From assembly GCF_002224285.1 (NCBI RefSeq), contig NZ_CP022436.1:1-64000 (forward strand): a stretch of 64,000 nucleotides of DNA, given 5' to 3'. The position numbers and the translations under genes are program-made. Positions 46,038 through 64,000 of this stretch are shown one piece after another (the stretch's first letter is position 1; each line of letters opens with the position of its first letter). The notes under the pieces are model-generated. The model was not told where the DNA came from and made no database searches. It saw only the letters and a program-made list of their open reading frames with translations. This DNA comes from Arthrobacter sp. YN (lineage in GTDB: Bacteria; Actinomycetota; Actinomycetes; Actinomycetales; Micrococcaceae).

Positions 46038-47552
46038 ATGTCCACTGCACCAAAGACGGTCCAGTCGAAAGAATCGCCAGCCCTGAGTGAAAAGGGGCTG
46101 AAGGCCGGATCGGTGGGCCTCATCGGCGCCGTCGTGATCGGTGTTTCCTGTATCGCACCCGCCTATACGCTCACCGCGGCCCTCGGCCCCACCGTGTCCG
46201 AGGTCGGTGTGCACCTGCCCGCCATCTTCCTGGTGGGCTTCATCCCCATGTTGCTGGTGGCGCTGGGCTACCGCGAACTGAACAACGCAATGCCCGACGC
46301 CGGTACCTCCTTCACGTGGGCGACGCGCGCCTTCGGTCCGTGGATCGGTTGGATGGGTGGCTGGGGGTTGATCGCAGCCACGATCATCGTGTTGTCCAAC
46401 CTGGCGGCCGTGGCGGTGGACTTCTTCTACCTGATGCTCGCCCAGATCTTCAGCAATCCGGAACTGGGTGAGCTCAGCAAGATCCTTCCGCTGAACATCG
46501 CCACCACGCTGGTGTTCATCGCCTTGGCCTGCTGGATTTCGTACCGCGGCATGGAGACCACCAAGGGCGTTCAGTACGTGCTGGTGGCCTTCCAGTTGCT
46601 GGTCCTGGGTTGGTTCGCAGTCTCCGCATTCGCCCACGTGGCCAACGGCACGGCCTTCGATGCCACCGCCATTTCACCGGACTGGTTCAACCCGTTCGCC
46701 GTGGACTCGTTCTCACAATTCGCCGCAGGTGTGTCGCTCTCAATCTTCATTTACTGGGGCTGGGACGTCACCCTCACCATGAACGAGGAAACGAAGAATC
46801 CCGAGAAAACCCCGGGCCGCGCCGCGACCATCACAGTGCTGGTCATCGTGGTCATCTACATGACCGTCGCACTGGCTACCCTGTCCTTCGCCGGCGTTGG
46901 CGAGACCGGATTGGGTGCCGGAAACCCGGAAAACCAGTCCAGCATCTTCGCCGTGCTTGCCGGCCCGGTGATGGGTCCGTTCGCGATCCTGATGTCACTG
47001 GCCATTCTGAGCAGCTCCGCGGCATCGTTGCAGTCGACGTTCGTTTCCCCGGCCCGCACCATGCTCGCGATGGGCCACTACCGCGCCATCTCGCCGAAGT
47101 TCGGCAAGATCAGCCCCACGTACAAGTCGCCCAGCTTCGCGACCATCGCCGCTGCAATCGCCGCCGCCGGTTTTTACGTGATCACCCGGACCGTGTCCGA
47201 GAATGCGCTGTGGGACACCATCACAGCTCTGGGCATGATGATCTGCTTCTACTACGGCATCACAGCGCTGGCCTGTGTCTGGTTCTTCCGGGCCGAGGCA
47301 TTCCGCGGTGCGCGTTCGTTCTTCTTCAAGTTCCTGGCACCTCTTGTTGGCGGCGTGATCCTGCTGGTCATGTTCGTCAAGACAGCCATGGACTCGATGG
47401 ATCCGGAGTACGGCTCGGGCTCATCCGTGGGCGGCGTTGGGCTGGTGTTCGTCCTGGGAATGGGCGTGATCCTGCTGGGCGTAGTGATCATGCTGGTGAT
47501 GTACCGGATACGGCCCGAGTTCTTCAAGGGCAAGGTTCTGACCCGGGCCTAG
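46038..47552 (+). CDS. APC family amino acid/polyamine permease
   Basis: The 504-residue protein has twelve predicted membrane helices and the APC N-terminal signature GAVVIGVSCIAPAYTLTAALGP. Later segments include YWGWDVTLTMNEETKNP, typical of the family. Since it follows putrescine oxidase and a USP gene, putrescine or a related amine is the likely substrate; this is contextual. GAGG lies upstream of the ATG. Its 3' end overlaps the convergent S9 peptidase gene by 29 nt. Confidence 0.88.
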   Translation: MSTAPKTVQSKESPALSEKGLKAGSVGLIGAVVIGVSCIAPAYTLTAALGPTVSEVGVHLPAIFLVGFIPMLLVALGYRELNNAMPDAGTSFTWATRAFGPWIGWMGGWGLIAATIIVLSNLAAVAVDFFYLMLAQIFSNPELGELSKILPLNIATTLVFIALACWISYRGMETTKGVQYVLVAFQLLVLGWFAVSAFAHVANGTAFDATAISPDWFNPFAVDSFSQFAAGVSLSIFIYWGWDVTLTMNEETKNPEKTPGRAATITVLVIVVIYMTVALATLSFAGVGETGLGAGNPENQSSIFAVLAGPVMGPFAILMSLAILSSSAASLQSTFVSPARTMLAMGHYRAISPKFGKISPTYKSPSFATIAAAIAAAGFYVITRTVSENALWDTITALGMMICFYYGITALACVWFFRAEAFRGARSFFFKFLAPLVGGVILLVMFVKTAMDSMDPEYGSGSSVGGVGLVFVLGMGVILLGVVIMLVMYRIRPEFFKGKVLTRA

Positions 47553-49257
47553 CTTCGCGGGAAATGGACGCCGCGAACGCGAGCACGGCCGCGGAGAAGT
47601 CCAGTACTTCCGGCGCTGCACGCTGGCCGTGACCGCCACGGTCCTCGTGGAGCAGCCAGGCCCGGCCCCCGCGTTCGCGGATTCCGGTAACAACCTCGAC
47701 GGCGGCACTGTTGTCCACACGTTCGTCGCGCCCCAGGAGGCAGCACAGGAGGGGCGGCAGCGCGGCGGCGGAGCCGATTCTTCCCAGCACGTGAACCGGG
47801 GAGTAGGCCGCCCGATCATGGTCAGAGCACTCCCCGTCGGCGCCGAACTCGTGCAGCCATTGCTTCCCCAAGCCATGGCGGTGAAGGTTCACGGTGTCCA
47901 GCAACGGAGCCACGGCCACCACTCCGCCGAATGAGGCGGGGGACAGGAGGGCTGCAGCCGTGACCACCAGCCCGCCATGCGACGCCCCGAACGGCACGGT
48001 CTGCCCGGGTGTGGTCCAACCGGCCGATGATAGGAATCCAGCCACGTCGATGAGGTCCTGGATGGTCCGCATCTTCCGTGGACCCCGGCCCGCCTCATGC
48101 CAGTCCCGGCCCATTTCCCCGCCCCCACGCAGATGGGCTGCCACGTACACTCCGCCGCTGTCCAGCCACGCCGGCACGCTGGGTTCGGCCTCGGTCCTGT
48201 GCGTGACGCCGAAACCGCCGTAGCACGTGAGAATCAGGGGCAGTGGCCGCACCGGGAAGCCGTCAGGCCCAAGGTCTGAAGCCCGTGCGGAGATGACCAC
48301 GGGGACGCCGACGCCGTCACTCGCCAAGGCTGTGACCTTCCGGTGGACTATATGGCTGCTGGAGTCTCCGGAGCTTTCGTTCGACCGCGCCGGTTCGTCC
48401 ACACAGAAGACCCCCGATGGACGCTCCGGGGAGGCCGTCTGGATCCAGAGGTCAGTGGCATCGGCACGGGGCTGGAGGGTGAACGATGACACGTATTCCG
48501 CTGGGGATAAACGGTACACGGGGCGGCTATCCAGTGTGACCATGGTGCCGTGGAGGTCGGAAACCAGTTCCACACGACCGGCAGGTGCGGCCGCAGCCGC
48601 AGGATGCCAGGCCCCTGACTCCAACTCCCACTCCCTTGTCCCGGTCCCCGGGTTCTTCGCCGCCAGCCGGAGATTGCCCCTGCCGTGCGTCAGGGAGAGC
48701 CGGCTGCCCGTGGTGTTGCCAAGATCCGTTGGAAACGGGAGCTCCTGGGTGTGGCCGGAGCCGAGCGGGGAGCGCATGATCTGCTGGCAGGGCGGTTTAC
48801 CGGTCAAGACCCAGATCCCACCCCCGTCTGGCTCCCACACCGGCGCTGCGTACCAAGACGTCGCCCCTGGGATGTGGACGGGTTGGGTCCCGGCAGCGAG
48901 GATCCAGATTTCCGCTAGTTCACTGGCGGATGTGCTCAGCAATGCTGCGATACGCGTTCCGTCAGGGGAGATGGTGAATCCGCGGACAATGGCGCCCGGT
49001 GGCGTGGGGAGCCGGGCACCGGGCGGCGCGGCCACCTCCAAGTGGGCCCGGCGAACATTCCAGGCATCCCGAAGCCCGGCCTCGGGTGCCAGGTGCAAGG
49101 ACGCAAACGCTTCGCCCGGCCCGCGCCAGAGAAAGGCAGCCTGTCCGCCGGCGAACTGGGGGAGCCCTTGGCGGGGCGTGGAGTCCCAGTGTTCCAAGAA
49201 GGCACGGAAATGCGGCCGAAGTCCTATGCCCGGAACAGCCTCCTTGAAGGTACTCAC
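47524..49257 (-). CDS. S9 prolyl-oligopeptidase family serine peptidase of the RiPP locus
   Basis: The 577-residue protein has an N-terminal seven-bladed-propeller-type region (about residues 1-300) and a C-terminal alpha/beta hydrolase with nucleophile Ser426 in GASHGG, Asp511 in GRDERV and His543 in RGGHG. It has no signal peptide. The GTG start overlaps the stop of the beta-propeller gene as GTGA, so I prefer it to the longer reading from 49302. In the RiPP setting it could cleave the precursor; POP-family enzymes can also cyclise peptides in eukaryotic RiPPs. The precursor has only one proline (Pro31, followed by Phe-Asp), so trimming after it is possible. Role is inferred. Confidence 0.85.
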   Translation of the reverse strand: MSTFKEAVPGIGLRPHFRAFLEHWDSTPRQGLPQFAGGQAAFLWRGPGEAFASLHLAPEAGLRDAWNVRRAHLEVAAPPGARLPTPPGAIVRGFTISPDGTRIAALLSTSASELAEIWILAAGTQPVHIPGATSWYAAPVWEPDGGGIWVLTGKPPCQQIMRSPLGSGHTQELPFPTDLGNTTGSRLSLTHGRGNLRLAAKNPGTGTREWELESGAWHPAAAAAPAGRVELVSDLHGTMVTLDSRPVYRLSPAEYVSSFTLQPRADATDLWIQTASPERPSGVFCVDEPARSNESSGDSSSHIVHRKVTALASDGVGVPVVISARASDLGPDGFPVRPLPLILTCYGGFGVTHRTEAEPSVPAWLDSGGVYVAAHLRGGGEMGRDWHEAGRGPRKMRTIQDLIDVAGFLSSAGWTTPGQTVPFGASHGGLVVTAAALLSPASFGGVVAVAPLLDTVNLHRHGLGKQWLHEFGADGECSDHDRAAYSPVHVLGRIGSAAALPPLLCCLLGRDERVDNSAAVEVVTGIRERGGRAWLLHEDRGGHGQRAAPEVLDFSAAVLAFAASISREARPGSEPCP

Positions 49258-50477
49258 CGTCCCACCGTGTCGCCCGGCACCGCGTCCACAGCAGAGACCC
49301 ATGCGAGGTGGCCGCCGTCGTGCAGGGGACTGCCCAAGGTGATGGTGCGCAGAGGGCTACCGGCCGCTGACGTGTCCACTACGTGCAGTTCGCCATGCCC
49401 ACCGCGGGTCACGGCGACGAGTTCCGAGGACGGTGAGGCGGCAATGGCGCGCCGTTCGACGTTGTCCCAGGGTTCATGGCCGGGCCGTGGGGCGCCGTCC
49501 ATGCGGGGGAGGTCCCACGTGCCCCGCAGCACCGGCGGGCCTGCCTCCAACGGTCCAAGGTGGTGCACCGAAAGCTCGTCGCCTTCCGGATGGACGCGGG
49601 CGGTCGCGATGCCGGTGGCAGTCAGAGCGAAACGGAAGACCAACCCCTGGCCCAGTGGTGTGGTCTGCGTCAGCCCGGTATCCACGTTGTACACCCACAA
49701 AGTGTTGCCCCATTGGGCCCAGCCTCTGGGTTCCCCGCCACCGTGGCGAAGGACGGCCACCAGGACACGACGCCCCGGGCAGAAGCGCAGGAAGTAGGCG
49801 CGGCCGGGAGCATCCCACGGGATAACGTCAAGGGCCTCCGGCTGCGGCTTGCGGACGTCGAAGCGTTCCAGGCCCTGGCCCGTGGCCACGAACATGGTGC
49901 CCGTGACGGGATCGAAGGCGTCACCGTGGCCGTCGGGGGAGGCCTCAGCCCGCAGCCCTTGCAGGGGTGGGCAGTGCACTCCTTCGGCCAGGATCCGCTC
50001 CACGCTGAAGGATTCGATGCCGCCGGGTTCGCGGTGACGGACGACGGCGGCAGGCCCCTCTGGCGTTTCGCCCACCACAACACCCGGCTCCCCAGCCCTG
50101 GTGCGGATGCGGCGTGAGGTGGGTCCGCCGTCGGACTCCAGGTCCACAACCGTGAGGAGGTCGCTCCAAGGCTCCCACGAGACACCAAGCCCGGTGGTGA
50201 CGGCAACGAAGCGGCCCGACGGGTCGCAGGCCAGGTGCTCACCCGGGATGGCCACGGGAATGATGCGGGGCGGGGTGTTGGTGAAGGCATCGGCAATGAC
50301 CAGGGCACCTCCGGCATCGTCAATGAACGCGCATCGTCCGCCTCCCAACGGCAGGAACCCGGCGTGCTCCGCCAGGACCACGGAGTCCAAGCGGTGCTGG
50401 ACTGCCCCGGTGACCGGATTCAGGAACTGTACATTCCCCGCTTTTTGGTCGGCGACAACCAAAACTTCGGAGGTCAT
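49254..50477 (-). CDS. Beta-propeller protein of the RiPP locus, function unknown
   Basis: The 407-residue protein has repeated propeller-like strands (VLVVADQKAGNVQFLNPVTGAV, GGALVIADAFT, LWVYNVDTGL, ELHVVDTSAAG), much like YncE/WD40-type proteins. It has no signal peptide and no recognised catalytic motif. ATG 50477 has GGGAGA upstream. It is the first gene of the left arm, divergent from the precursor peptide over the shared operator, and coupled to the S9 peptidase. I do not recognise a characterised homologue. Confidence 0.75.
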   Translation of the reverse strand: MTSEVLVVADQKAGNVQFLNPVTGAVQHRLDSVVLAEHAGFLPLGGGRCAFIDDAGGALVIADAFTNTPPRIIPVAIPGEHLACDPSGRFVAVTTGLGVSWEPWSDLLTVVDLESDGGPTSRRIRTRAGEPGVVVGETPEGPAAVVRHREPGGIESFSVERILAEGVHCPPLQGLRAEASPDGHGDAFDPVTGTMFVATGQGLERFDVRKPQPEALDVIPWDAPGRAYFLRFCPGRRVLVAVLRHGGGEPRGWAQWGNTLWVYNVDTGLTQTTPLGQGLVFRFALTATGIATARVHPEGDELSVHHLGPLEAGPPVLRGTWDLPRMDGAPRPGHEPWDNVERRAIAASPSSELVAVTRGGHGELHVVDTSAAGSPLRTITLGSPLHDGGHLAWVSAVDAVPGDTVGR

Positions 50478-50499
50478 TGGCTCTCCCTTTCACTTAATT

Positions 50500-50514
50500 T
50501 GAGAATGGTTCTCA
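50500..50514. promoter_or_regulatory. Zur-like operator between the two arms of the RiPP locus
   Basis: TGAGAATGGTTCTCA has perfect six-nt arms around TGG, or a 7-1-7 form with one mismatch. It fits the actinobacterial Zur pattern (TGAAAATnATTTTCA type), a Fur-family site. A possible promoter for the precursor has TTGAGA at 50499-50504 and TATAGT at 50520-50525 (15-nt gap), so the site would cover the -35 region. It does not resemble the DtxR/IdeR iron box. Metal identity is inference. Confidence 0.72.
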
Positions 50515-50581
50515 TTAACTATAGTGTGACGTTGTCGCCGCAACAGCGGAGGCAACCACCACCACCGAAAGGAGACCAACC

Positions 50582-50683
50582 ATGGAAAAGACCACGGTTC
50601 TGGTTGAAGTTGAAGAGACCGAGCAGCTGGCACACCTGTCGGCAACACACTCGAATGCACTGGTTGAAAACCCGTTCGACTAG
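50582..50683 (+). CDS. RiPP precursor peptide, 33 residues
   Basis: The translation is MEKTTVLVEVEETEQLAHLS followed by ATHSNALVENPFD. GGAGA lies six nt upstream of ATG 50582. An acidic and hydrophobic N-terminal half (leader-like) precedes a short, polar C-terminal half with Ser20, Thr22, Ser24, two His (18 and 23) and Asn25, but no cysteine. It lies directly before an E1-like partner, YcaO and SagB genes, so Ser/Thr heterocyclisation to (methyl)oxazoles is expected. The cleavage site is unknown. I know no named family that matches. Confidence 0.82.
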   Translation: MEKTTVLVEVEETEQLAHLSATHSNALVENPFD

Positions 50684-50694
50684 TCACTAAGCCA

Positions 50695-50724
50695 GGGGGC
50701 GGGCGCGCCGGCGCGCCCGCCCCC
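50695..50724. terminator. Perfect 30-bp hairpin between precursor and biosynthetic genes
   Basis: Two 15-nt arms (50695-50709, 50710-50724) form an uninterrupted GC-only palindrome, ending in CCCCCTTAG with no T run. It sits 11 nt after the precursor stop and 33 nt before the next ATG. It is well placed to stabilise the precursor mRNA or partly stop transcription, giving more peptide than enzyme. Confidence 0.8.
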
Positions 50725-50757
50725 TTAGCTCCACCCCAGCAACTTTCGGAAGGAACC

Positions 50758-51489
50758 ATGGGCACCGCAATAGACAGCTTTGACGTCGCGGGACGATCAA
50801 CCATCCGCAGCGGTGACGGCGCCTTCTTCCATCTCCCACCTTCGGCAGGCAGTGGCCAGCACCTGGCGACAGACGTCAGCGACGAACTGCTGCAACGCCG
50901 CCAAGCTGGTGCGCGTCCCCTCCCCGGACGGGAGCGGATCGGGCTGGTAGCCCCCGAACCCGTTGCTGCCGCACTCCTGCCCGTGTTCCACGAGGCCGGG
51001 GTGGACCTGGCGGTGGGTGGCGACCGGGAGCCCGGCTCCGTAGGACTCCTCCTGCACCTGGCAGCCACGCCCGCCGAGCGGAACCGCTTTGACGCATTGC
51101 CGGGGAGCCGGTCAGCCGTGCTCCGCTTCTACGGAGAAGGCGACCTGGTCTTCGTCGATCCGCTGTCCCTTGAACCGGCAGACCCAACAGGGTGGCAGGT
51201 AGTCCGGCGCAGGCTCGCAGCCTCACCGGCCGCGGCCGAACTGTGGGCCTGGCTGGATACCCCCGCTGCTGCCGCGGACTTCGCTCCCCAAGGCGTAGCC
51301 ATGGACCTGTTCACGGCCAGACTGCTCACCATCATCACCGCCTGGCAACGGAATTCGCCGTCACTTGCCGCTCACCGGCGTACGCTCTGGCGGCTGGACA
51401 CTCTGACGTTGGCAGCCAGCGAACACCCCGTTCTGCCCTTCCCGGAACCCGGCCGCTTGGGTGGGGGCTTGCGGGCTCCGCTGCGATGA
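50758..51489 (+). CDS. E1-like (Ocin-ThiF) partner protein of the YcaO cyclodehydratase
   Basis: The 243-residue protein fits the small partner proteins that bind a TOMM precursor leader and present it to YcaO. The best support is the C-terminal segment RRTLWRLDTLTLAASEHPVLPFPEP, which matches the family ending HPVLPLP before a usual Cys-rich zinc site. Here no CxxC follows, so the structural zinc is absent. The middle is variable. Its position between precursor and YcaO supports the role. The stop overlaps the next start as ATGA. Confidence 0.75.
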   Translation: MGTAIDSFDVAGRSTIRSGDGAFFHLPPSAGSGQHLATDVSDELLQRRQAGARPLPGRERIGLVAPEPVAAALLPVFHEAGVDLAVGGDREPGSVGLLLHLAATPAERNRFDALPGSRSAVLRFYGEGDLVFVDPLSLEPADPTGWQVVRRRLAASPAAAELWAWLDTPAAAADFAPQGVAMDLFTARLLTIITAWQRNSPSLAAHRRTLWRLDTLTLAASEHPVLPFPEPGRLGGGLRAPLR

Positions 51490-52595
51490 GACCCGCCACC
51501 GCGCCGGATCATCTGGACATCACCGCTGACGACGGCGTTCGGCTCACCGCAGACCACTACCGCGCACCGGCGGAAGGGGAGGTCCAAGGGACGGTCCTGA
51601 TCCGGACACCCTACGGCCGGACCCAGTACGCGGCCCAAGCCCACGCATGGTGCCGTGCCGGATACGACGTAGTGGTCCAGGACGTCCGTGGGCGCTACGG
51701 TTCCGCCGGCGCATGGAATCCCTATGACAAGGAGGGCCCGGACGGAGCTGCAACCGCCCGCTACCTCGCCGGGAAAGGGTTGCTCAGGGGCCCCCTCATT
51801 CTGGCCGGAGCCTCCTATGATGCCCACTGTGCAGTCGAGGCGGCCCGGGTTTTCGAGGCGGCCCGGGTTTTGGAGGCGGCCCGGGTTTTGGAGGCGGCCG
51901 CGCCCAGGCCCCTGGCCGTGGTGGCGATGGTGCCGGCACTGGGCCTCTGTGAAACGGCCAGGGAGCCCGATGGCACACCGCGCCTGCGGGACAGGATTGG
52001 CTGGTGGCACCAGCACGGTTTCGGTAGGGAGTCCGGCCACCCTTTACCCGCCGCAGAGCTCCGGAGGATATACCGGCAGGCTGAGGAACGCGGGATGGAC
52101 TGGACGATTCACAACCTCATGGATGACGCCACGTATGGTCCGGGTTCCGCCGCTGGTTGGAAGCGTCTCTGGGACGCCCCACCAGCCGATCTCCACGGGC
52201 TCTATGGGCTGCTGAACACGCCGCTGCTGATGATTTCGGGACAACGGGACTTCTTTGTTGCCGAAGCTGCGGAGCTGGTGAGGGCCTGGGGCAGCGCGGC
52301 GCCGCGAACTTTGGTGGAAACGCTTTGGGGGCCATGGGGTCACGGACTCGCCAGCGATCTCGACGCCGGAACCGCCGCCGCGCTCCGCGAACAGGGCGGC
52401 CTGATGGCCCGGATCAAGGACTTTCTGGGTGCTGCCAGCGGCTGGGATCCACCCGGCGCCAAGCCCGAGCTCCTTGGACACTCCCGCCCGCCAGCCCTCC
52501 AGTGGGAGCCCGGCAACCAGCCACATTCATGGCGCTGGGCACCCGCCACCCCCGAGACACTGCCGCACCCCCTGAACAACCACGGAGAATCATGA
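51486..52595 (+). CDS. S15/CocE-type alpha/beta hydrolase of the RiPP locus
   Basis: The 369-residue protein resembles X-Pro dipeptidyl peptidase and cocaine-esterase family hydrolases. Early motifs are IRTPYGRTQY and VVVQDVRGRYGSAG; the nucleophile Ser110 sits in LAGASYDAH, an Asp in ISGQRDFFV and a His in WGPWGHG. Residues 118-138 contain three tandem EAARV(F/L) units, encoded by 18-bp repeats. ATG 51486 overlaps the preceding stop, so the longer reading from 51192 is rejected. It may process the leader peptide or hydrolyse an ester; this is inference. Confidence 0.82.
   Translation: MRPATAPDHLDITADDGVRLTADHYRAPAEGEVQGTVLIRTPYGRTQYAAQAHAWCRAGYDVVVQDVRGRYGSAGAWNPYDKEGPDGAATARYLAGKGLLRGPLILAGASYDAHCAVEAARVFEAARVLEAARVLEAAAPRPLAVVAMVPALGLCETAREPDGTPRLRDRIGWWHQHGFGRESGHPLPAAELRRIYRQAEERGMDWTIHNLMDDATYGPGSAAGWKRLWDAPPADLHGLYGLLNTPLLMISGQRDFFVAEAAELVRAWGSAAPRTLVETLWGPWGHGLASDLDAGTAAALREQGGLMARIKDFLGAASGWDPPGAKPELLGHSRPPALQWEPGNQPHSWRWAPATPETLPHPLNNHGES
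51837..51890 (+). repeat. Three in-frame 18-bp tandem repeats inside the S15 hydrolase gene
   Basis: Units at 51837-51854, 51855-51872 and 51873-51890 differ by one base (final C or G) and a truncated fourth copy follows. They encode EAARVF, EAARVL and EAARVL right after the nucleophile helix. Near identity at DNA level suggests recent slippage. Confidence 0.92.
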
Positions 52596-53983
52596 CCACA
52601 ACAGCCGAAAACCTGGGCCTGCTTCCCTTGCACACCTTGGTGGACGAGCAGACCGGGATCATCCGCAGGGTTCGTCCCGTTCTCACCCCGGAGAACGCCC
52701 CACCCGCGTACACGTCCATGACCGCGGAGGTATCGAACGCGCGCTGGCTGGGAGACTGGCCCGCCGACCGCGTTTCACTGGGCACCACGTTCGGCGACAG
52801 CCGACAAGCCTGGATCGCGGCCGTCGCCGAAGGCATGGAACGGTACTGCGGGAACTTCATCCCCGCAGACCTCCCGGACCACCACTACTTCACCGGGACG
52901 GCCCGTGAGCTGACGGCGTCAGGCCGGGCCGCCGTCGGGCTTGAACAACTGCCGCGATTCGCGGACTGGCAGCTGGAACGTGCGGCATTCCCCTACCGGA
53001 ACCTCGACGCCGACACTCCCGCGCTGTGGACAGCGTGCAGGCGGGAATCGGACAGCTCGGAGGTGTGGCTGCCTGCGAGCCTTACTCTCCTGAACTGGCG
53101 GCAACGGCGCTTCCGTGACCTCCCGCGGATCCATCATCTGAACTACGCGGGGATCGCCACCGGGCAGGGCCGCGCTGATGCCACGGACAGGGCGGTGCTG
53201 GAAACCATCGAACGCGACGCCCTGGAACTGTGGTGGCATTTGGACGGTCCCACCCGCGGTGTCAGGCCAGAGAGTGTTCCCGGACTGGTGGACGCCATGG
53301 CCGGTTGCCGGCTGCGGTACTGGGTGGTGGAAATGCCCAGTGAGTTCGCACCCTGCATGGCGGCCCTGGTGTTCGACCCGGAGACGGGGCTGTACGCTGC
53401 CGGTTTCTCCTGCAAGAACGAACCCGCTGAAGCGGCACGCAAGGCAGTCCTGGAGGCCGTCCACACCTGGATCTACTCCCAAGGTGCCACCGACGAGGAC
53501 GGTTGGGTGTTCCAAGCGGTGGAGGCAGGGCTCATGGCCAAGGGACTGTACTTGGAACACCGTGAAGACCGTCAATACCTGGACGACGTGGGACCCGGGT
53601 TCGGTGCAGTCCGCGACCTCGGTGCACATGTTCAGGTGTGGCTTGATCCCCGGACACACGTCCTCGCGGAACGCTTCACCAAGCCCGCAGGTGGGCTGGC
53701 GGACATTGATGCCGTGGATGACGTGTCCATGCCGGAGCTCTACAGGCGGCTGGAATCGGCCGGCCACACCGTATATACCCGTGAACTGACCACTCCCGAC
53801 GTCGCGGTGACCGGCCTGAGTGTTGTCCGCGCCGTGGTGGGAGGACTGGTTCCCAACGCGCCGGCCGCTTTCGCCTACCTCGGCTGCCCCAGGTTCACCA
53901 CAGCGGCCTTGAAGCGCGGGTGGCGTGAAACGGCGCCGGCACGGCCGGAGGACTTCACCCTCACCCCACCTCCCCACATGTAA
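52592..53983 (+). CDS. YcaO-domain azoline cyclodehydratase
   Basis: YcaO enzymes use ATP to convert Ser/Thr/Cys side chains and peptide bonds to azolines. The 463-residue protein has the ATP/Mg-binding glutamate motifs in AAVAEGMERYCG (about 77-86), AVLETIERDALELWW (201-215) and ARKAVLEAVHTW (282-293). It ends with a proline-rich tail TPPPHM, reminiscent of the C-terminal proline motif of azoline-forming YcaO proteins. It is separate from its E1-like partner. ATG 52592 overlaps the preceding stop; a longer reading from 52157 is rejected. Confidence 0.92.
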   Translation: MTTTAENLGLLPLHTLVDEQTGIIRRVRPVLTPENAPPAYTSMTAEVSNARWLGDWPADRVSLGTTFGDSRQAWIAAVAEGMERYCGNFIPADLPDHHYFTGTARELTASGRAAVGLEQLPRFADWQLERAAFPYRNLDADTPALWTACRRESDSSEVWLPASLTLLNWRQRRFRDLPRIHHLNYAGIATGQGRADATDRAVLETIERDALELWWHLDGPTRGVRPESVPGLVDAMAGCRLRYWVVEMPSEFAPCMAALVFDPETGLYAAGFSCKNEPAEAARKAVLEAVHTWIYSQGATDEDGWVFQAVEAGLMAKGLYLEHREDRQYLDDVGPGFGAVRDLGAHVQVWLDPRTHVLAERFTKPAGGLADIDAVDDVSMPELYRRLESAGHTVYTRELTTPDVAVTGLSVVRAVVGGLVPNAPAAFAYLGCPRFTTAALKRGWRETAPARPEDFTLTPPPHM

Positions 53984-55116
53984 TGGACGTCCCCCACGTA
54001 CTCCTTCCCTCAGGATTTGCCCGCGCCTGGAGCCACGAGATTCCCGGTCCCGTGCAGCCGCCCGGTCCCCAAGGTGCCCCGGTGTCCGGCACAGTTGAGC
54101 ACCCGCGGCATGATGGGCTCCCGGTGGCCGCCATGCTGAAGGCCATCTGGTGGAGCGAGGACTTCCACCCGAATCCCGCCACCGGCCTGCCCGGGAAGGT
54201 GCGGAAACGCCCAGTGCCGTCGGCCGGCGGGTGCTACCCGGTGCAACTGCGGGTCCTCTGCGGGGAAGGCTGCGACGTGCCGCCCGGAACATACGTGTTT
54301 AACGGCAGCGGCGGTGAGTTGCTTCGCCTGCGGAACCACGACGACGGTACCCCACCTCAAGGGGGTCCGCGGGCACCCGCGCGGGGCGCCGTCGTCGTAC
54401 TGACCGTGTTGCCGCAACGCACCCTGGCGAAGTACCACCACCGTGCGGGTCCGCTGCTGATCGCGGATACTGCCTACGCGGCGGTGGCCTTGGTTCACCA
54501 TGCCGCTGCCCGGGGTGTGGACGCCCGGTGGGATGTTGTTGCGCCTGTCCGTTGGCTCGGCTCTGTTCCGGAGTTCGCGCTGGCCACGGTGTCTCTGGGG
54601 GTGTCCCCGGCGAGGTGGCCGCAGCGCCGTCATGACCGGATCGCCGGGGTATCGGAGGCGCAGCTGGCTGCCCGCAGGAGCTGTGAGTTCTCCCGCTTGG
54701 GTGCCCGCCCGGCCGCCGACGCGGGCCGGGTTGTTGAGGATCTCCTGGAGCGTTCCCTCCTTTCCTTCCCGCAGCCAGCCCCTTCGTCCTGCCGGGCCCG
54801 CGTCCTGTCCGCGGAGTGGCTCCGTGATCCGGAGCTGGCCGATCGATGTGCCGGGCAGCACTGGATAGGGAACCTCGACGCCCTGTTGGTTTTCGAGACC
54901 CCGGGCACGCCAACCCCGGCCGCCATGTGGTGGGCCGCCACGTTGGCCGCCCACAGCCTCTACACCGCGCTTGGCGCGGACCTACCCCTGGAATTTCGGC
55001 CGGTGGGCGGCTGGACCGGCTCCCACAGCGGCTGGACCACACTCCATGGACTGGGCGTAGCAATCCGGAAACCACTCACCACAAACCACGAAAGGGCCGC
55101 GCATGCTGGTCAATAA
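53983..55116 (+). CDS. SagB-type FMN-dependent azoline dehydrogenase
   Basis: The 377-residue protein belongs to the SagB nitroreductase family that oxidises azolines to azoles. It has RPVPSAGGCYPVQLRVL (about 76-92), which matches the SagB motif R-PSGG-YP, and later a RRSCEFSR segment. The presence of this enzyme suggests that at least some rings are fully aromatic. It begins at ATG 53983, sharing one base with the YcaO stop (TAATG), and overlaps the first ABC gene by 14 nt. Confidence 0.88.
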   Translation: MDVPHVLLPSGFARAWSHEIPGPVQPPGPQGAPVSGTVEHPRHDGLPVAAMLKAIWWSEDFHPNPATGLPGKVRKRPVPSAGGCYPVQLRVLCGEGCDVPPGTYVFNGSGGELLRLRNHDDGTPPQGGPRAPARGAVVVLTVLPQRTLAKYHHRAGPLLIADTAYAAVALVHHAAARGVDARWDVVAPVRWLGSVPEFALATVSLGVSPARWPQRRHDRIAGVSEAQLAARRSCEFSRLGARPAADAGRVVEDLLERSLLSFPQPAPSSCRARVLSAEWLRDPELADRCAGQHWIGNLDALLVFETPGTPTPAAMWWAATLAAHSLYTALGADLPLEFRPVGGWTGSHSGWTTLHGLGVAIRKPLTTNHERAAHAGQ

Positions 55117-56866
55117 GAGGCTCTTCCAGATGACGGCCGGCCACCGCGGCCGGCTGGCTGGGGTAACAGCCCTGCTCTGCATCACCACGGCGAGCTACTG
55201 GTTGCAGGCGTGGTTCCTGGCCCAGGCCCTGGCGGCGCTGGTGGTTCTGGTGCGGGTTCCCGGAAACCCCGACGGCGGCACGTACGGGCCGCTGGTTCCG
55301 TACCTTGCCGGGGTTCTTGCGTGTGGCCTGGGGCGCCTCGTGATCCAGCAGTTCCACGCCCGGCTGGCCAGTTCCTTGGGCTCCGGGGTGCGGTTGCAGG
55401 TACGACGGAAGTTGGCCGACAGCCTGCTCCAGCCCGAACGGCTCAGGGATACCTCGGACCGCGGTGGAGCCCGGCGGTTGGCCCTGAGCGAAGGTGTGGA
55501 CGGAGTGGACAGCTACATCAGCCAGTACATCCCCCACGCTTTCCAACTGCAGATAGTGGTGCCCGCGCTTCTTGTCTGGATCGCGTGGCTGAATCCCTTG
55601 CTGGCGCTTGCCTTGGCCCTTGCCGTGGCCGTGGCTGTTGGTGCGCCGAAAGTCTGGGGAAGGGCCCTGGCGAAACGCGGACAGCAGCACTGGGACAGTT
55701 ACGAGGCACTTAGCGCCGACTTCCTGGAGGCCCTCCAAGGGATGCGGACCCTCAAGATCCTTCACGCCGTTCCCCGGACAAGGGGGCGGCTCCATCACAG
55801 GTCCCAGGAGCTCCACAGGGCAACCGTCTCCACCATGCGCACGTCCCTGGTGGACACGGCGTTGGCGGACTTCGGGATCCAGGCAGGGATGCTGGCCGCC
55901 GCCGCGCTTGCCGCATTCGCAGCGCTGGGGCAGGGGCCATTGCCCGGACCGGAGAGTGCGGCGATCACGTATTTCCTGCTGATGCTCTCGTCGGAAGTCT
56001 TCAGGCCGGTGCGGGATCTGGCACGCCAATGGCATGCCGGGTATCTGGGGCTCTCGGCTCTTGGGAGCATTGACGCAGCGGGAGGCGCGGACACCCGCGG
56101 TGACCGTACGTTGACGGGCGAAGGGCAGGCACGTTCTGCGCACGGTGCCCTGTACGCACACGGTGCCGTTTCCGCGCCCGGGGTGCGTCCCGGCGTCGTG
56201 CCTCCCGGTCGTCTCACGCTGGAGAACGTGAGCTTCCGATACTCAGCTGCGGACCCCTGGGTTCTGCGGGATGCGTCGGCAGAGATCCAGCCCGGCGGCC
56301 TCACCGCGCTGGCGGGGGTGTCAGGGGCGGGGAAGAGCACGCTGTTCGACCTCCTGCTGGGATTCCTGCCGGCGGAGGAGGGCCATATTCGCCTGGACGG
56401 CCAGCTGCTTAGGCCCAGTGACGTCAGCGTGGTCTCACAACGCAGCTACCTCTTTCCGGGGACCATCCGGGAGAACCTCAGAGTGGTGGCGCCTGCTGCT
56501 ACGGAGGAGGAGATGCAGCGCGTCGTGGAGATTGCCGGCTTGGCCGAGGAACTGCGGCAGTGGCCCCAAGGCCTGGAAACTGTGCTGTCCGAAGGGGGTG
56601 GATCCGTCTCGGGAGGCCAGCTCCAGCGGCTTTCGATTGCACGGGCACTCCTGGTGGACAGGCCGGTTCTTCTCCTGGACGAGCCAACGTCCGCCCTCAA
56701 CACCGAGCTCGCTGGACAGGTGTTGGAGGGGCTTCGCCGCGAAGCCGGACGCCGGATTGTGCTCATGATCGCCCACCGGCCCGAAGCCCTCGCTGCCGCG
56801 GACACCGTACTCCGCCTGGCACATGGCCAACTCCACACACAGCAACAGGAAGCAGCCACGCTATGA
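55103..56866 (+). CDS. ABC exporter subunit, CydD-like, RiPP locus
   Basis: The 587-residue half-transporter has a six-helix membrane domain (residues 1-310) and an ATPase domain with Walker A GVSGAGKST, signature SVSGGQLQR, Walker B PVLLLDEPTSA and H-loop IAHR. An unusual low-complexity insert of about 45 residues rich in G, A and R lies between the two domains. It resembles CydD more than typical bacteriocin exporters and lacks a C39 peptidase domain. It probably pairs with the next gene to export the modified peptide. Confidence 0.9.
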   Translation: MLVNKRLFQMTAGHRGRLAGVTALLCITTASYWLQAWFLAQALAALVVLVRVPGNPDGGTYGPLVPYLAGVLACGLGRLVIQQFHARLASSLGSGVRLQVRRKLADSLLQPERLRDTSDRGGARRLALSEGVDGVDSYISQYIPHAFQLQIVVPALLVWIAWLNPLLALALALAVAVAVGAPKVWGRALAKRGQQHWDSYEALSADFLEALQGMRTLKILHAVPRTRGRLHHRSQELHRATVSTMRTSLVDTALADFGIQAGMLAAAALAAFAALGQGPLPGPESAAITYFLLMLSSEVFRPVRDLARQWHAGYLGLSALGSIDAAGGADTRGDRTLTGEGQARSAHGALYAHGAVSAPGVRPGVVPPGRLTLENVSFRYSAADPWVLRDASAEIQPGGLTALAGVSGAGKSTLFDLLLGFLPAEEGHIRLDGQLLRPSDVSVVSQRSYLFPGTIRENLRVVAPAATEEEMQRVVEIAGLAEELRQWPQGLETVLSEGGGSVSGGQLQRLSIARALLVDRPVLLLDEPTSALNTELAGQVLEGLRREAGRRIVLMIAHRPEALAAADTVLRLAHGQLHTQQQEAATL

Positions 56867-58524
56867 GCCTCACCGCACGCACACCCCGCAACCCGCTCCT
56901 GGGCCTGGTTCCGCACATGTCCGGCGAATGGGCAGGGATAGTATGGACCGCCGTTGTGGGCATCCTGAACAACCTGGCCCTCATTGTCCTTGCTGTTGTG
57001 GGCTCCTACGTTGTGGCGCTGGCTGTGATGAGGCAGGAGCCCGCAGCCGGCGAATGGTGGGTTGCCGGGGTGGCGGCCGTGGTGTTCAGGGCGGTGCTGA
57101 CGTGGCATGAGATGGACATCTCGCACAGCATTGCGTACCGGATCCTGGCCGCGCTGCGCATGGCACTCTTTGACGGTTTCGCGCGCGGCGTCCCTTCCCG
57201 CAAGCCGGACCAGCACACCGGAAAACTCGCCGCCACGGCCATGGGCGATGTTGAAAAGCTGGAGTTCTTCTACGCCCACACGGTTGCCCAGCTGGCTGGC
57301 TCCGCAGTGCTGTTCGTGGCCGGGGTGACTGTGCTGTGGCCTCTGGGCCCGGGCTTGGCCGGGGCCTTGCTGCTGGGGTTCGTGGCGCTGGTTGTGGTGA
57401 CGCTCCCGGGATTGCGCCGGGGTGCCATGTTGGGTGCGAGGGTGCAGGAGGCCAGGTCCGGGGTGTCGGTCCTCGCCGTGGACCTGCTGGCCGGCACCCG
57501 CGAGATCCTGGGTTTCGGACTACAGGAGCACGCTCAACGCCAACTGGAGGACCAGAGCCTGGCAGTGGATGCCGGCCAGCGCAGGCTCAACTCCTTCCTT
57601 GCCATGGCAGCGTCCTTGCGCGAGCTGTGTGTCCTGGGCACCGTGGTGGCGGTCTTCCTTGCTGCCATCTCACAACCCGGGCTGGATCCTGTGTGGCTGC
57701 CCGCCGTGGTTGCCGGCACTCTGACTCTCCTGGCTCCGGTTGCCGAGGGCGTTGCCACCGTAACCCAGCTCCAGCCGCACCGTGCCAGTGCCCAGCGCGT
57801 TGGGGAGGGCATCAGCCTGCCCTCGGCCGCAACGGTTTCGGGGCCCATCGTGGAGTTCAACCCCCAGGGGCCGCTGGGTCTGAAGGTCCGGAACCTGCAG
57901 TTCACGTACGACGACGACGCGCCGGCTTTGCGCGCGACGTCCCTGTCAGTGGCGCCCGGCGAGCATGTGGGGATCAGCGGGCCATCCGGGGCAGGAAAGA
58001 CCACACTGGCCCGGTTGTTGGTGCGCTTGTGGGTGCCGGATTCGGGGAGTATCGCCCTGGTGCCGCGCAGCGGGGAGTCTGTGGACGCCTGGGCCGTGGG
58101 CGAGGAGTCGTTCCGGCGTATGGTCACGTTGGTGGAGCAGGACGCCCCGGTCTTCCATGGTTCCGTTCTGGACAACATGCGCCTGGCCGAGCCCACGGCA
58201 ACTGAAGCCGACGTCCTGTCAGCCTTCGACCGGGCAGGGCTTCCGCTCGCTGGCGAACGATGGGCGGAGGGCGTGGATACCGTGATCGGCGAGCAAGGGG
58301 TGAGCCTGTCCGGTGGCGAGCGTGCCCGCTTCTGCTTGGCGCGGGCCCTGTTGATCAAGCCCAAGATCCTGGTGCTGGATGAAACCACAGCCAGCCTGGA
58401 TCCTGCCTCGGAGCGTGCCCTGGTGGAAGCTGTTGCTGCGATTGCCGGCGACACCACGGTGATCACTGTGTCCCACAGGGAGTCCACCCTGGCCGCATGC
58501 CACCGGCGGGTGCAGCTGGGCTAG
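56863..58524 (+). CDS. ABC exporter subunit, CydC-like, RiPP locus
   Basis: The 553-residue partner has six membrane helices and an ATPase domain with Walker A GPSGAGKTT, signature SLSGGERAR, Walker B ILVLDETTAS and H-loop VSHRES. The start ATG overlaps the preceding stop, so a heterodimer is likely. It closes the right arm of the RiPP locus. cydA/B genes are not in the window, and the operon layout argues for peptide export rather than cytochrome bd assembly. Confidence 0.9.
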   Translation: MSLTARTPRNPLLGLVPHMSGEWAGIVWTAVVGILNNLALIVLAVVGSYVVALAVMRQEPAAGEWWVAGVAAVVFRAVLTWHEMDISHSIAYRILAALRMALFDGFARGVPSRKPDQHTGKLAATAMGDVEKLEFFYAHTVAQLAGSAVLFVAGVTVLWPLGPGLAGALLLGFVALVVVTLPGLRRGAMLGARVQEARSGVSVLAVDLLAGTREILGFGLQEHAQRQLEDQSLAVDAGQRRLNSFLAMAASLRELCVLGTVVAVFLAAISQPGLDPVWLPAVVAGTLTLLAPVAEGVATVTQLQPHRASAQRVGEGISLPSAATVSGPIVEFNPQGPLGLKVRNLQFTYDDDAPALRATSLSVAPGEHVGISGPSGAGKTTLARLLVRLWVPDSGSIALVPRSGESVDAWAVGEESFRRMVTLVEQDAPVFHGSVLDNMRLAEPTATEADVLSAFDRAGLPLAGERWAEGVDTVIGEQGVSLSGGERARFCLARALLIKPKILVLDETTASLDPASERALVEAVAAIAGDTTVITVSHRESTLAACHRRVQLG

Positions 58525-58792
58525 CCTTGGATGTGGATTGTTTCTCCGGCGCGGTCTCTGCCTACTTGGAAGTGGGACGGGAGTTCTCGCAGTTCCTTCT
58601 ACTCCCGTACTTGAGCTGGCATGCACGGGTATTCATGGGACGGAAGTAGCCTAATCGCTATCAGCGTGGCCGGTCGGCTGGCGCAATCTACCTGGCGGGA
58701 GATTCAATTGGTCGTGCCTGATGACCGTTTGGCCAGCGTTCAGGACTACTGCTTTCGAGAAAGCACAAACTGTTTGCATTCCGGGCGGTGCG
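58525..58792. other. Spacer after the RiPP locus
   Basis: This 268-nt stretch between the exporter genes and the convergent regulator gene has no supported gene. One 60-residue reading frame (58621-58803) has no ribosome binding site and no conserved pattern. No clear terminator was seen. Confidence 0.6.
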
Positions 58793-59881
58793 CTATCTCT
58801 TGATCGACGATTCGCGTACAACGAGTGTGGGGTTCACGTAGATGCGCTGAGTAGGTCGTTCAGGACCTTCTTCCAGGCGTGCCAGCAGCAACTCCACGGC
58901 GAGGCGCCCGACGTGTTGCTTGGCAGGTCGAACGGCAGTGAGGGGAGGTTCCCCGAGATGTGAGCCCTCATCGCCGTACGCAACCACCGCTAAGTCATCG
59001 GGGATCAGTATGCCATGATGGGAACAAAACTGGGCAAAAGCAACAGCATGAGGGTCCGAGTGGATGATCAGGGCGGTGATTCCAGCACCAATAACTTCCT
59101 CGGCCACGAGTTTCAGCAAGTCTTCCCGACGTGGAGCGTCAAAGCTCACCGTTTCATGCACCAGATCGTTACCGTTCGGAATCCCTAGCTCCCCGCAGGC
59201 CGCCGCCCACCCACGCAGGATGTGACCTGCGGTGGGGGACTCCCGGCTGATGAGTACTCCGATCTTTGTATGGCCCTGGGAGCGTAAATGCCGCACAGCA
59301 ATTTCAGTCCCGTGCCGATGGTCAGTGGCCACGATGTCTGCACCGCCACTCACCAAGTGGGACGGCGTGAAACGCTCCATGAGCACGTGCGGTTCAGAAA
59401 GGCTGCCAATCCAACGCAGCAAATCAGGGCCACCTGGCCCTGAGGTAGTCGGCGCCAACAACAGTCCATGAACCTTCCCCGGCTTAATCAATTTTTCTAT
59501 CTGGCGGCGGTTGTCCGGCCCGTCATATGCCGAGCCTCTCACCAAAACTGCAGTCTTCTTGGCTGTTGCCGTGGCACGAACTCCTCTGATGATTCCGGGC
59601 CAAAAAAACTCCAGTGAAGGCACCACGATCCCCAGCTTGTACTTCGACTGGCTGACGGCCGGCGGCCAACCATCTTCATTGGTGGTGCTGACAAGAATGG
59701 CACCACCATGAACCCTGCTCAGGAGCCCACGACGCGCCAGTACCTCGATATCTCGCCGGACGGTCATCTGACTTACCGAAAGACGATTGGCTATTTCCCC
59801 GACGCCAATCGATCCTTCTCTGCGCAGCTCGTTCATGACGAATTCATACCGCTGTTCCGCAAAAAGTGTGTCTGGTGCCAT
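58793..59881 (-). CDS. DeoR-type HTH fused to LacI-type sensor domain, transcriptional regulator
   Basis: The 362-residue protein has a DeoR helix-turn-helix at the N terminus (RREGSIGVGEIANRLSVSQMTVRRDIEVLARRGLLSRVHGGA) joined to a periplasmic-binding-protein-like sensor as in LacI regulators (KLGIVVPSLEFFWPGIIRGV, DHRHGTEIAVRHLRSQGHTKIGVL, LTAVRPAKQHVGRLAVELLL). This domain mix is seen in some actinobacterial sugar regulators. ATG 59881 has GAGGAT upstream. It is divergent from the beta-helix protein gene and probably controls it. Confidence 0.88.
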   Translation of the reverse strand: MAPDTLFAEQRYEFVMNELRREGSIGVGEIANRLSVSQMTVRRDIEVLARRGLLSRVHGGAILVSTTNEDGWPPAVSQSKYKLGIVVPSLEFFWPGIIRGVRATATAKKTAVLVRGSAYDGPDNRRQIEKLIKPGKVHGLLLAPTTSGPGGPDLLRWIGSLSEPHVLMERFTPSHLVSGGADIVATDHRHGTEIAVRHLRSQGHTKIGVLISRESPTAGHILRGWAAACGELGIPNGNDLVHETVSFDAPRREDLLKLVAEEVIGAGITALIIHSDPHAVAFAQFCSHHGILIPDDLAVVAYGDEGSHLGEPPLTAVRPAKQHVGRLAVELLLARLEEGPERPTQRIYVNPTLVVRESSIKR

Positions 59882-60161
59882 CGTGATCCTCATTCGAGCC
59901 CGCTCGGGTATACCGGGGTTTCTGGGGCGCAGGGCTCCCGGGGTGGTGGCAGTCTACCCGGAGGCGACGCTGCTGACAGGTCAAGAATGCCGCCCCGAGG
60001 TGGTCATGGGTGGTAGCGCCACTGAGGGCGCGGTTGTTTACCTTTGTTTGAGTGTGTGCTAATCGGTTCGCTTCCTTAGATTGTGGGGTGGGTCACATGT
60101 TTGACTTCGTGTGCCTGCAGAATCCATGCGGGTTTCACTCAAAGGGGAGAAGTTCTTGGCT
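59882..60161. promoter_or_regulatory. Divergent spacer, regulator and beta-helix gene
   Basis: This 280-nt gap must hold both promoters. The stretch near 60035-60060 is less GC-rich (GTTTACCTTTGTTTGAG) and is the likely promoter region for the beta-helix gene. No clear operator palindrome was found. Confidence 0.5.
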
Positions 60162-61589
60162 ATGACAAATTCACGCAACGTGCCCAACCCGCTGGAACAG
60201 CTCCGCGGTCCTGGCCGCAGAGATGTCCTCCGACTGATGGGAATCGGGGCAGCGGTAGGAGCGGTGGGCTTCACAATCCAGGAGGGCGGCATCGTTGCCA
60301 GGCCCGCAAGCGCCATAGCGGGACGGAACATCTACGTCCGGGCCGGAGCCGGGACGGGCACTGCCCAGGACGGCACCACACCGGAGAAGGCCTTCGGGAC
60401 ACTGCAGGCGGCTTCGAACATCACCACGCCCGGTGACACGGTTCTCATCATGAACGGGACCTACATTGACAACGGCAACCCGGGGAACAGCGGGACTTTG
60501 AACATCACACGGTCCGGACAAGATGGTCTTCCAATCACCTACGCTGCTTATCCGGGGCATACGCCCGTCATCACGGTGACCCGCGAGTCCTGGGCTGGTA
60601 TTCGGATCACGGGCGCGGACTACATCACCATCGAGGGTCTCACCCTTGCGGGTTTGAACGCCGAACTCGTTTATGCGGATGCGTACGCTGCACGCTTGCA
60701 GGCAACCCCCACATACAACGCCAGCGGCATCAGCATCCAGCTGGCGCAGGGGGATACAAGCACAGTTGGTTCCCACCACATCATCGTGCGCAACAACGTT
60801 ATTCACAGCTGGCCCGGCGGTGGTGTTGCTGCTGTCAAGGCCGACTATCTGACAGTGAACCAAAACACCATCTTTAACAATGCCTGGTACTCCATCTTCG
60901 CCAACAGTGGTGTCTCTACTCTGGTGCCGTCAAACTTCAACACCAACACCGGGAATCGGAACTTCTTTACGAGGAATTTGGTGTACGGCAACAAGTCCAA
61001 CATTCCATGGCGGGATACCGGCAAAATTTCGGACGGAAACGGCATCATTGTCGATTCCACGCTGGGACTGGAATCGGGAGGGGTCCGCTACCAGGGCAGG
61101 ACTCTAGTGTCCAACAACGTGGTTTTCAACAACGGCGGTTCCGGCATCCACGCCTACAAGGCCAACAACGTGGACATCATCAACAACACCGGCTACTTCA
61201 ACTCCGCAAGCTCCACGCTGAATTATGGAAACATCGGTGCTTGGGAAAGCCAGAACTGCAATGTCCTGAACAATGTCTCGTACGTGCGGACGGGCAAGTC
61301 CACCAACTCCAAGTACAACAACGTCAATGTCCGGTACGACTACAACATCTACTTCAACGGCGCTACCCCAGAGGTGCTGGGGCCGCAGGACGACGTAGCG
61401 AACCCCCTGTTTTACTTCCCATCCACAGTCCGGGCCGATTCCGATTTCCGGATTAACTCCGGCTCACCGGCTATTGGAACCGGAACCGCCCAACTCGCGC
61501 CCAGCGTTGATTTCACCGGAGCAACCCGTCCGGCCGGGGGAGTCGACAGGGGAGCGTATAGGTATGGCGCCACAACCAAGGGCTACTAA
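60162..61589 (+). CDS. Tat-exported right-handed parallel beta-helix protein
   Basis: The 475-residue protein starts MTNSRNVPNP and has a twin-arginine signal (GRRDVLRLMGIGAAVGAVGFT). The rest shows repeated beta-helix rungs (YITIEGLTLAG, HHIIVRNNVIHS, TLVSNNVVFNNGGSGIHAYKANNVDIINNTGYFN) typical of polysaccharide lyases, pectinase-like enzymes and mannuronan epimerases. No specific lyase catalytic signature was recognised. ATG 60162 and TTG 60156 are both possible starts; GGGGAG lies at 60144-60149. A carbohydrate substrate fits the sugar-type regulator next to it. Confidence 0.85.
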   Translation: MTNSRNVPNPLEQLRGPGRRDVLRLMGIGAAVGAVGFTIQEGGIVARPASAIAGRNIYVRAGAGTGTAQDGTTPEKAFGTLQAASNITTPGDTVLIMNGTYIDNGNPGNSGTLNITRSGQDGLPITYAAYPGHTPVITVTRESWAGIRITGADYITIEGLTLAGLNAELVYADAYAARLQATPTYNASGISIQLAQGDTSTVGSHHIIVRNNVIHSWPGGGVAAVKADYLTVNQNTIFNNAWYSIFANSGVSTLVPSNFNTNTGNRNFFTRNLVYGNKSNIPWRDTGKISDGNGIIVDSTLGLESGGVRYQGRTLVSNNVVFNNGGSGIHAYKANNVDIINNTGYFNSASSTLNYGNIGAWESQNCNVLNNVSYVRTGKSTNSKYNNVNVRYDYNIYFNGATPEVLGPQDDVANPLFYFPSTVRADSDFRINSGSPAIGTGTAQLAPSVDFTGATRPAGGVDRGAYRYGATTKGY

Positions 61590-61708
61590 ACAGCAGCCCT
61601 TCCCTGTGCGTCTTGGAGGTTCGTGGCAAATCCCGTGGTTGAGGCCTCCAGCAGTAATTTAGGAACTTCTTCGACGCTCGTGGCCATCTTCCTAACCTGC
61701 GAAAGGGC

Positions 61709-62728: not shown

Positions 62729-62769
62729 GGGTGTGCCTCCAGTTGGGTTGTATCGGGTGATGGGTACGT

Positions 62770-63591: not shown

Positions 63592-64000
63592 CGTTTGATG
63601 CCACCCCGTACAGCGCCGTTGCCGCGCATGAGCCACAGGAAGAAGGGCGCTCCGACGGTAGCGGTGAGGATGCCCAAGGGAATCTCGGCCGGTTGCGCCA
63701 CCGTGCGGGCCAGCAGGTCAGTGAGCATGAGGAAAAGGGCCCCGCCAAAGATGGTGACGGGCAGCATGCGGCGGTGATCGGAGCCCACCAGCATGCGCGC
63801 GGCGTGCGGCACTACCAAGCCCACAAATCCGATGCCGCCGCATACGGCAACCGTGGTGGCAGTCAGTAATGCCGTGGCCAGCAAGAGTGTCCGACGCAGC
63901 GATTCCACGTTGACGCCCAGGGCCGTGGCCGTTTCGTCGCCGGCCAGGAAGGCGTTGAGCGCGCGTGATCGGAACATCGCGAAGACGCTGATGGCCACGA
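63588..64000 (-). CDS. FecCD-type ABC transporter permease, 5' end cut by window edge
   Basis: About 136 C-terminal codons of a FecCD permease are visible, including LAGDETATALGVNVE (the ATPase-contact region), GGIGFVGLVVPHAARM and the terminal helices LTDLLARTVAQPAEIPLGILTA and PFFLWLM. The gene runs past the right edge of the window, so its start and the operon promoter are not visible. Confidence 0.94.
   Translation of the reverse strand, partial: VAISVFAMFRSRALNAFLAGDETATALGVNVESLRRTLLLATALLTATTVAVCGGIGFVGLVVPHAARMLVGSDHRRMLPVTIFGGALFLMLTDLLARTVAQPAEIPLGILTATVGAPFFLWLMRGNGAVRGGIKR

Follow-up and report, generated by a model that had tools for sequence, protein, structure and literature searches.

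What does the biosynthetic locus at positions 47524 to 58524 of Arthrobacter sp. YN produce, and what controls its production? The stretch of DNA analyzed here, hereafter the window, comprises the first 64,000 nucleotides of contig NZ_CP022436.1 and belongs to a 5.06 Mb genome (label G000) that lies near Paenarthrobacter. The closest named loci by YcaO identity are those of P. aurescens TC1 (97%) and P. nitroguajacolicus (87%). On the plus strand, genes for a short precursor peptide, its modifying enzymes and an ABC exporter form one unit; genes for a beta-propeller and an S9 peptidase run divergently from it, and a palindrome lies in between. The original prediction described an azole-forming ribosomally synthesized and post-translationally modified peptide (RiPP) locus of no recognised family, under the control of a Zur-like metal repressor. 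Its tightly overlapping gene unit and its palindrome are both real, as gene coordinates, profile matches and the score of the palindrome attest. We find that the locus is, practically beyond doubt on the evidence of its sequence, a streptamidine-family (ami) RiPP cluster. The cluster itself is a further member of a known family; what appears to be new is that this family carries conserved Zur-type operators.

The precursor gene amiA (50582-50683, plus strand) encodes 33 residues and passes the curated NCBIfam model NF040714 "streptamidine family RiPP" with 65.9 bits against a cut-off of 40. Its core is exactly HLSATH and is followed by SNALVENPFD. According to Russell et al. 2021 (PMC8442711, whose main text is meant wherever it is cited here), this core yields streptamidine, in which His1 and Leu2 form a six-membered amidine and which contains no azole. 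Since the core of the window is identical to the characterized one, its predicted product is streptamidine itself, an amidine and not an azole peptide. The RiPP assignment of the original prediction was confirmed by these data, while an azole RiPP of unrecognised family was rejected, as the precursor matches NF040714 and its core is the published one; the supposed novelty of the peptide class went with it, because the precursor comparison matched the locus to a characterized RiPP family. The major ami cluster type comprises amiF1-F4 (FecBCDE-like), amiA, amiB, the amiC hydrolase, the amiD YcaO, the amiE dehydrogenase and amiT1/T2 (PMC8442711). The streptamidine gene set (amiA-amiE, amiT1/T2 and a Fec-type importer) is complete in the window region, amiB and amiE being weak matches.

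The family was surveyed in 83 loci, namely 76 of 80 relatives' loci, the window and six further relatives. The four loci dropped had no precursor, three of them ending with their contig (L039, L066 and L093) and one carrying a run of N (L046). The set contains some redundancy: L128 duplicates the L040 record, L127 stems from a genome very close to the species of the window, and L129-L131 are copies in one genome. An H-x-S-x-x-H core was found at least once in every one of the 83 loci, giving 91 cores in total; as the precursor search pattern required His6-Ser and ALV, part of the constancy of His6 stems from the pattern itself, and His1 and Ser3 were not required. Two tandem core units per precursor were observed in L049 (L049:7808-7990), L050, L072, L073, L089, L091, L110 and L116.

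The palindrome between the divergent units, TGAGAATGGTTCTCA (50500-50514, 15 bases), is a predicted Zur-type operator. It matches 10 of the 11 specified positions of the Zur consensus tGaNNatSatNNtCa, an experimental consensus from S. coelicolor obtained by chromatin immunoprecipitation on arrays (ChIP-chip; Choi 2017, PMC5472717) that is independent of the ami loci. With a matrix built from 27 distinct boxes of 69 consensus-chosen loci, from which the window and L039-L043 were excluded, it scores 20.2 bits and is the best site in the 64 kb, the runner-up reaching 15.1. In each locus we then scored the region from -130 to -20 of amiA for its best match to the consensus. Of the 83 loci, 64 matched at least 10 of the 11 positions and 35 of these matched all 11; a match of 9 or better was seen in 77. 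At the threshold of 10, the controls gave 5/1608 for random 110-base windows, 0/83 for the reversed motif and 13/8300 for composition-matched shuffles; the random windows, here and for the importer below, avoided the tested places only and may contain other true sites. Six of the nine clusters that AmiD forms at 80% identity include a locus that scores at least 10, and the other three, each a single locus (Cryobacterium, a Brachybacterium metagenome-assembled genome and G178), score 9, 9 and 8. Three relatives whose YcaO is 30-34% identical likewise have a site between divergent genes, with matrix scores of 19.2, 14.3 and 19.7; two of these relatives each carry a pair of YcaO genes. This conservation strongly supports the Zur-type metal-repressor site that had been proposed from the window.

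An A/T-rich, -10-like element directly follows the box on the amiA side in the window and in most of 25 loci inspected by eye, which would place a bound repressor over the -35 region and the spacer. A sigma-70 promoter scan gave no match at its thresholds. One genome, G152, holds three ami copies (L129, L130 and L131), two of them near contig ends, and in one copy the start of the propeller match is close enough to amiA for the box region to appear altered.

A second box was found before the Fec-type importer. The importer operon (61709-64694) lies downstream of the ami genes on the opposite strand, with its last part beyond the window, and the same linkage is seen in relatives. It encodes, on the minus strand, an amiF-like substrate-binding lipoprotein (61709-62773; PF01497 69.2 bits, cut-off 27.5), the gene for which also occurs near ami in relatives, an amiF-like ATPase (62770-63636) and a permease (63588-64000 in the window, the gene ending at genome position 64694). 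The box, TGAGAATGATTCGCA, lies beyond the window at genome 64730-64744, leaves a 35-base gap to the permease gene and scores 16.8 bits. The range originally assigned to the locus covers the ami genes and the propeller/S9 pair and omits this operon with its own box.

Whether the importer has a box of its own depends on gene arrangement. In the 54 Streptomyces-type loci, where propeller and fec genes are divergent, the intergenic site matches at least 10 of 11 positions in 52 cases and 9 in the other two; among 1402 control windows, each 360 bases long, 4 reached 10 or more. In 11 loci, six of them from Nocardiopsis, fec lies behind the S9 and propeller genes and is preceded, further upstream, by the box common to these genes and amiA; there, no site was found just upstream of fec (best score 6-8 in 11/11). 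Twelve loci have a separate fec unit beside the propeller/amiA pair, with scores of 11, 11, 11, 10, 9, 9, 9, 9, 9, 8, 8 and 6, the four highest belonging to L040, its duplicate L128, L043 and L127. The remainder of the set consists of L041, L130 and L131, where fec was out of reach, and of the short contigs L059 and L061 without propeller. Together, these results show that the predicted operators follow transcription units.

The genome encodes two Fur-family proteins. The first is encoded beside znuB/znuC/znuA; its curated NCBIfam matches are all below cut-off, and its closest solved structures are 3mwm and 7vo0, whose depositors call them putative metal uptake regulators, and 2o03, a probable zinc uptake regulation protein FurB. 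We take 3mwm and 7vo0 to be S. coelicolor Zur. The second is PerR-like by sub-cut-off matches and is encoded beside a catalase-like gene, in an 11-kb stretch with no site above 10.6 bits. A genome-wide pattern search with one mismatch allowed returned 18 places, which were scored by the matrix. The top three were the boxes of aztD (21.3 bits), ami (20.2) and fec (16.8); the next, within a coding region (L014), scores nearly as high as the fec box (16.6). The aztD box (G000:4978359-4978373; L018, L136) is of the ami type and lies right before a gene whose product passes the curated zinc-chaperone model with 444.7 bits (cut-off 400). A box of at least 16 bits precedes aztD in 7 of 17 loci, this genome and six others, in a survey that picked the wrong open reading frame in four loci and from which the fragments L154-L156 were excluded. 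For the second ZnuA-like gene of the genome, the sole strong match in the vicinity is located beyond the start of that gene, within the next one. The attribution to Zur is based on the published consensus in Streptomyces and, in the genus of the window, on aztD and on the likeness to the znuA operator described below. Judged from the sequence comparisons, Zur-type control of the ami cluster is very probable.

The propeller gene (49254-50477, minus strand) encodes a predicted cytosolic protein of AztD-like fold, with four invariant His across 15 sequences and no evident signal peptide by eye. Its best structural matches are AztD. A sequence relationship to AztD was rejected, as there was no match to NCBIfam NF038015 and hhalign gave a probability of 1.8, rising to 18 for a global alignment that covered part of the length; likewise, comparison of the propeller sequence with the PDB returned no meaningful match. 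The adjacent S9 prolyl-oligopeptidase-type serine peptidase (open reading frame 47524-49302, minus strand; PF00326 94.9 bits, cut-off 22.6) likely starts at a GTG at 49257, placed by eye, which overlaps the propeller stop. It retains the catalytic Ser in GASHG at residue 439. Loci of the Micrococcales and Nocardiopsis types have an S9 gene next to amiA; none of the 54 Streptomyces-type loci does.

From these data we infer that Zur binds both operators with zinc as the signal, and we give a zinc-starvation function under Zur a probability of roughly 0.7; that the cluster has some role in the zinc-starvation response is, as a claim of its own, probable. The metal-linked role of the original prediction survives in this form, its site strongly supported by conservation and its link to zinc put forward as a hypothesis. 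In the presence of zinc, Zur would occupy the operator at 50500-50514, which overlies the -35 region and spacer of amiA and lies between amiA and the propeller/S9 unit, as well as the second operator before fec. Upon zinc depletion, amiA, the propeller/S9 unit and fec would all be released together. AmiB, AmiD and AmiE would then close the His1-Leu2 amidine on HLSATH, the chemistry and gene requirements being those of the Streptomyces cluster (PMC8442711). AmiC, here perhaps with the S9 enzyme, would trim the peptide, AmiT1/T2 would export it, the importer would return a metal complex or the peptide, and the propeller may handle zinc inside the cell.

The combination of a siderophore-class importer with an AztD-like propeller suggests that zinc could return with the peptide. 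One can thus conceive of ribosomal zinc acquisition, in which an exported His-x-Ser-x-(Ser/Thr)-His amidine peptide would bind zinc, be taken up again by the Fec-type importer and pass its metal to the AztD-like cytosolic propeller, all under Zur; we consider this possible, at somewhat less than even odds, and propose a zincophore role with the same reserve. If zinc is acquired in this way, the active form may be a product that is larger or oxidised and that cells make only when starved of zinc, streptamidine being its fragment found in ordinary culture.

Several observations weigh against a zinc-starvation function under Zur, and some of them also speak for alternative explanations. In the published experiments, no binding of seven metal ions, zinc included, was seen, an amiD mutant had no phenotype in metal starvation, the wild type produced well in ordinary media, and the product was lost upon deletion of the importer genes (PMC8442711). 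As a conjecture, these results could stem from testing the wrong form of the product, from the culture conditions or from ZnuABC acting redundantly. They can also be read as indicating that a Zur-controlled ami cluster makes no metallophore at all: the product would be a signal or competition peptide released at zinc shortage, and the Fec-type importer would retrieve the peptide. The operator evidence applies identically to this explanation, and the authors of the streptamidine study, who observed neither metal binding nor antimicrobial activity, propose signalling or development (PMC8442711). However, the same predicted operators precede genes for a siderophore-class importer and for an AztD-like propeller, which favours metal handling, and the core contains two His, so we regard a non-metallophore product as a doubtful, if serious, contender.

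The znuA operator of the genus adds to the points against. In the 26 of 30 znuA loci used, the main operator is AAATAGGAATSATTCCYATTTA or close to it (seen in L120 and L157-L179) and appears to be a highly conserved form of the actinobacterial Zur box that differs in its arms, TAG..CYA and not TGA..TCA. The ami matrix reaches at least 14 bits in 5 of the 26 znuA regions versus 17/831 controls. The core GAATSATTC is present in 23 of the 26 regions and once elsewhere in 90.7 kb, and is found in exact form in just 5 of the 83 ami regions, that of the window not among them. The znuA operator and the P. nitroguajacolicus ami box have 11 of 15 bases in common. The different arms could mean that the ami boxes serve another Fur-family regulator or another metal, leaving the cluster outside zinc control; Fur-family sites are mutually similar, and the importer family is mostly named for iron siderophores or corrinoids. 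Yet the genome has only two Fur-family proteins, one Zur-like by its place beside znuABC and one PerR-like with no such site nearby, in Streptomyces the sites agree with the Zur box obtained by ChIP in 10-11 of 11 positions, and the same box type precedes aztD. Nor was an iron-box consensus enriched. The 19-position IdeR/DtxR consensus was matched at 10 or more positions in 49/83 amiA regions versus 284/1615 random windows, but also in 4667/8300 shuffles of the same amiA regions, and at 11 or more in 8/83 amiA regions versus 1664/8300 shuffles. The excess over random windows is absent against shuffles and is thus due to base composition, and iron control was rejected. Control by a regulator other than Zur, or by another metal, is in our view improbable.

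The remaining points against a zinc-starvation function under Zur concern the sample, the boxes and the propeller. Fifty-nine of the 83 loci fall into one AmiD cluster. The 11 one-box loci have a weaker shared box, which reaches 10 or more in just 3 of them, and 8 of the 12 loci with a separate fec unit score 9 or less. Finally, the propeller resembles AztD in fold only. The kinship of the loci, many of which come from related Streptomyces, would also suit a palindrome kept by descent only, or for some other purpose, with no regulatory function. Against this, the palindrome occurs at two promoters, where its bases vary and its symmetry is kept; it also tracks transcription units and is still present in relatives with a 30-34% identical YcaO. 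We give this explanation very little credence.

The other plus-strand genes, which from amiB onward overlap by few bases, complete the cluster. AmiB (50758-51489) is tentatively assigned as the E1-like/leader-binding partner: it matches TIGR03882 at 16 bits, below the cut-off of 36.9, and 5 of 11 members of its family match at E 0.05 or better, while comparison of the AmiB profile with solved structures gave no meaningful match. AmiC (51486-52595) is a CocE/S15 hydrolase (TIGR00976 72.6 bits, cut-off 66.3; PF02129 72.2 bits) with a predicted role in freeing the core's N terminus (PMC8442711). The catalytic GASYD region of amiC is immediately followed by a tandem repeat that keeps the frame (EAARVFEAARVLEAARVLEAA, about 51830-51905); L127 and L040 differ there in sequence or length. 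AmiD (52592-53983) is the YcaO cyclodehydratase (PF02624 138 bits, cut-off 25.7; TIGR03604 191.6 bits, just under the cut-off of 219) and AmiE (53983-55116) a SagB-like dehydrogenase by a weak match (TIGR03605 30.1 bits, cut-off 78.4). AmiT1 (55103-56866) and AmiT2 (56863-58524) are CydD- and CydC-like ABC exporter halves (TIGR02857 310 bits, below the cut-off of 435; TIGR02868 263.5 bits, below 329). Among the enzyme labels first given to these genes, those of the E1-like partner and of SagB depend on weak, sub-cut-off matches. The 3.2 kb between amiT2 and the importer (58525-61708) encode a DeoR/LacI-type regulator (58793-59893, minus strand) and a beta-helix protein (60111-61589, plus strand). 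In the close relative L127, unlike in the window, amiT2 directly adjoins the importer.

Directly 3' of amiA, folding energy indicates an RNA hairpin with a 14-bp stem (50694-50725, plus strand). The region folds at -39.2 kcal/mol (z -3.61), and none of 200 shuffles was as good. Perfect inverted repeats of at least 11 pairs occur at this place in 8 of 18 loci inspected, the window included, and their sequences differ among relatives. Such a hairpin would be compatible with extra expression of the precursor.

The ami cluster of Streptomyces albidoflavus J1074 (PMC8442711) shares with the window the precursor family, the HLSATH core, amiA-E, amiT1/T2 and a FecBCDE-like importer. In contrast, the importer genes of the window, of which three were found as compared to the four named in the paper, lie downstream on the opposite strand, and a propeller and an S9 peptidase are divergent from amiA. 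Klebsazolicin and bottromycin, as presented in the same paper (PMC8442711), also possess an amidine ring made by a YcaO enzyme, but they differ in their cores and in having azoles, a thiazoline or a macroamidine. Coelibactin of S. coelicolor is likewise made by a specialised metabolite cluster under Zur and predicted to serve zinc uptake; unlike streptamidine it is a non-ribosomal peptide and no RiPP. The zinc metallochaperone AztD has the same type of fold as the window's propeller without sequence-profile homology, and is exported (the copy of this genome has a lipoprotein-like start), whereas the propeller has no signal peptide evident by eye. The propeller of AztD is eight-bladed. Methanobactin is a ribosomal peptide for metal uptake under metal control, in that case for copper and with other enzymes and chemistry. 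We know of no link of klebsazolicin or bottromycin to Zur or to a Fec-type importer.

In open-licence PMC full text, regulon databases and subscription papers lying outside this scope, we found no report of Zur control of the streptamidine family, and nothing that combines YcaO with Zur, zinc and RiPP or YcaO with "zinc uptake regulator". The name streptamidine occurs in 12 papers of that collection, and "zur" appears once in a paper on a thiazole RiPP (PMC11934131). The word "Zur" does not occur in the main text of the streptamidine paper, the supplement being outside this count (PMC8442711). The conserved Zur-type operator may account for the lack of phenotype in earlier tests. Should the zincophore role prove true, streptamidine would be, to our knowledge, the first ribosomal peptide for zinc uptake. 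The operator provides a handle on the purpose of this family, as it indicates when to look, in zinc starvation and in zur mutants, and what to look for, namely zinc binding and zinc uptake.

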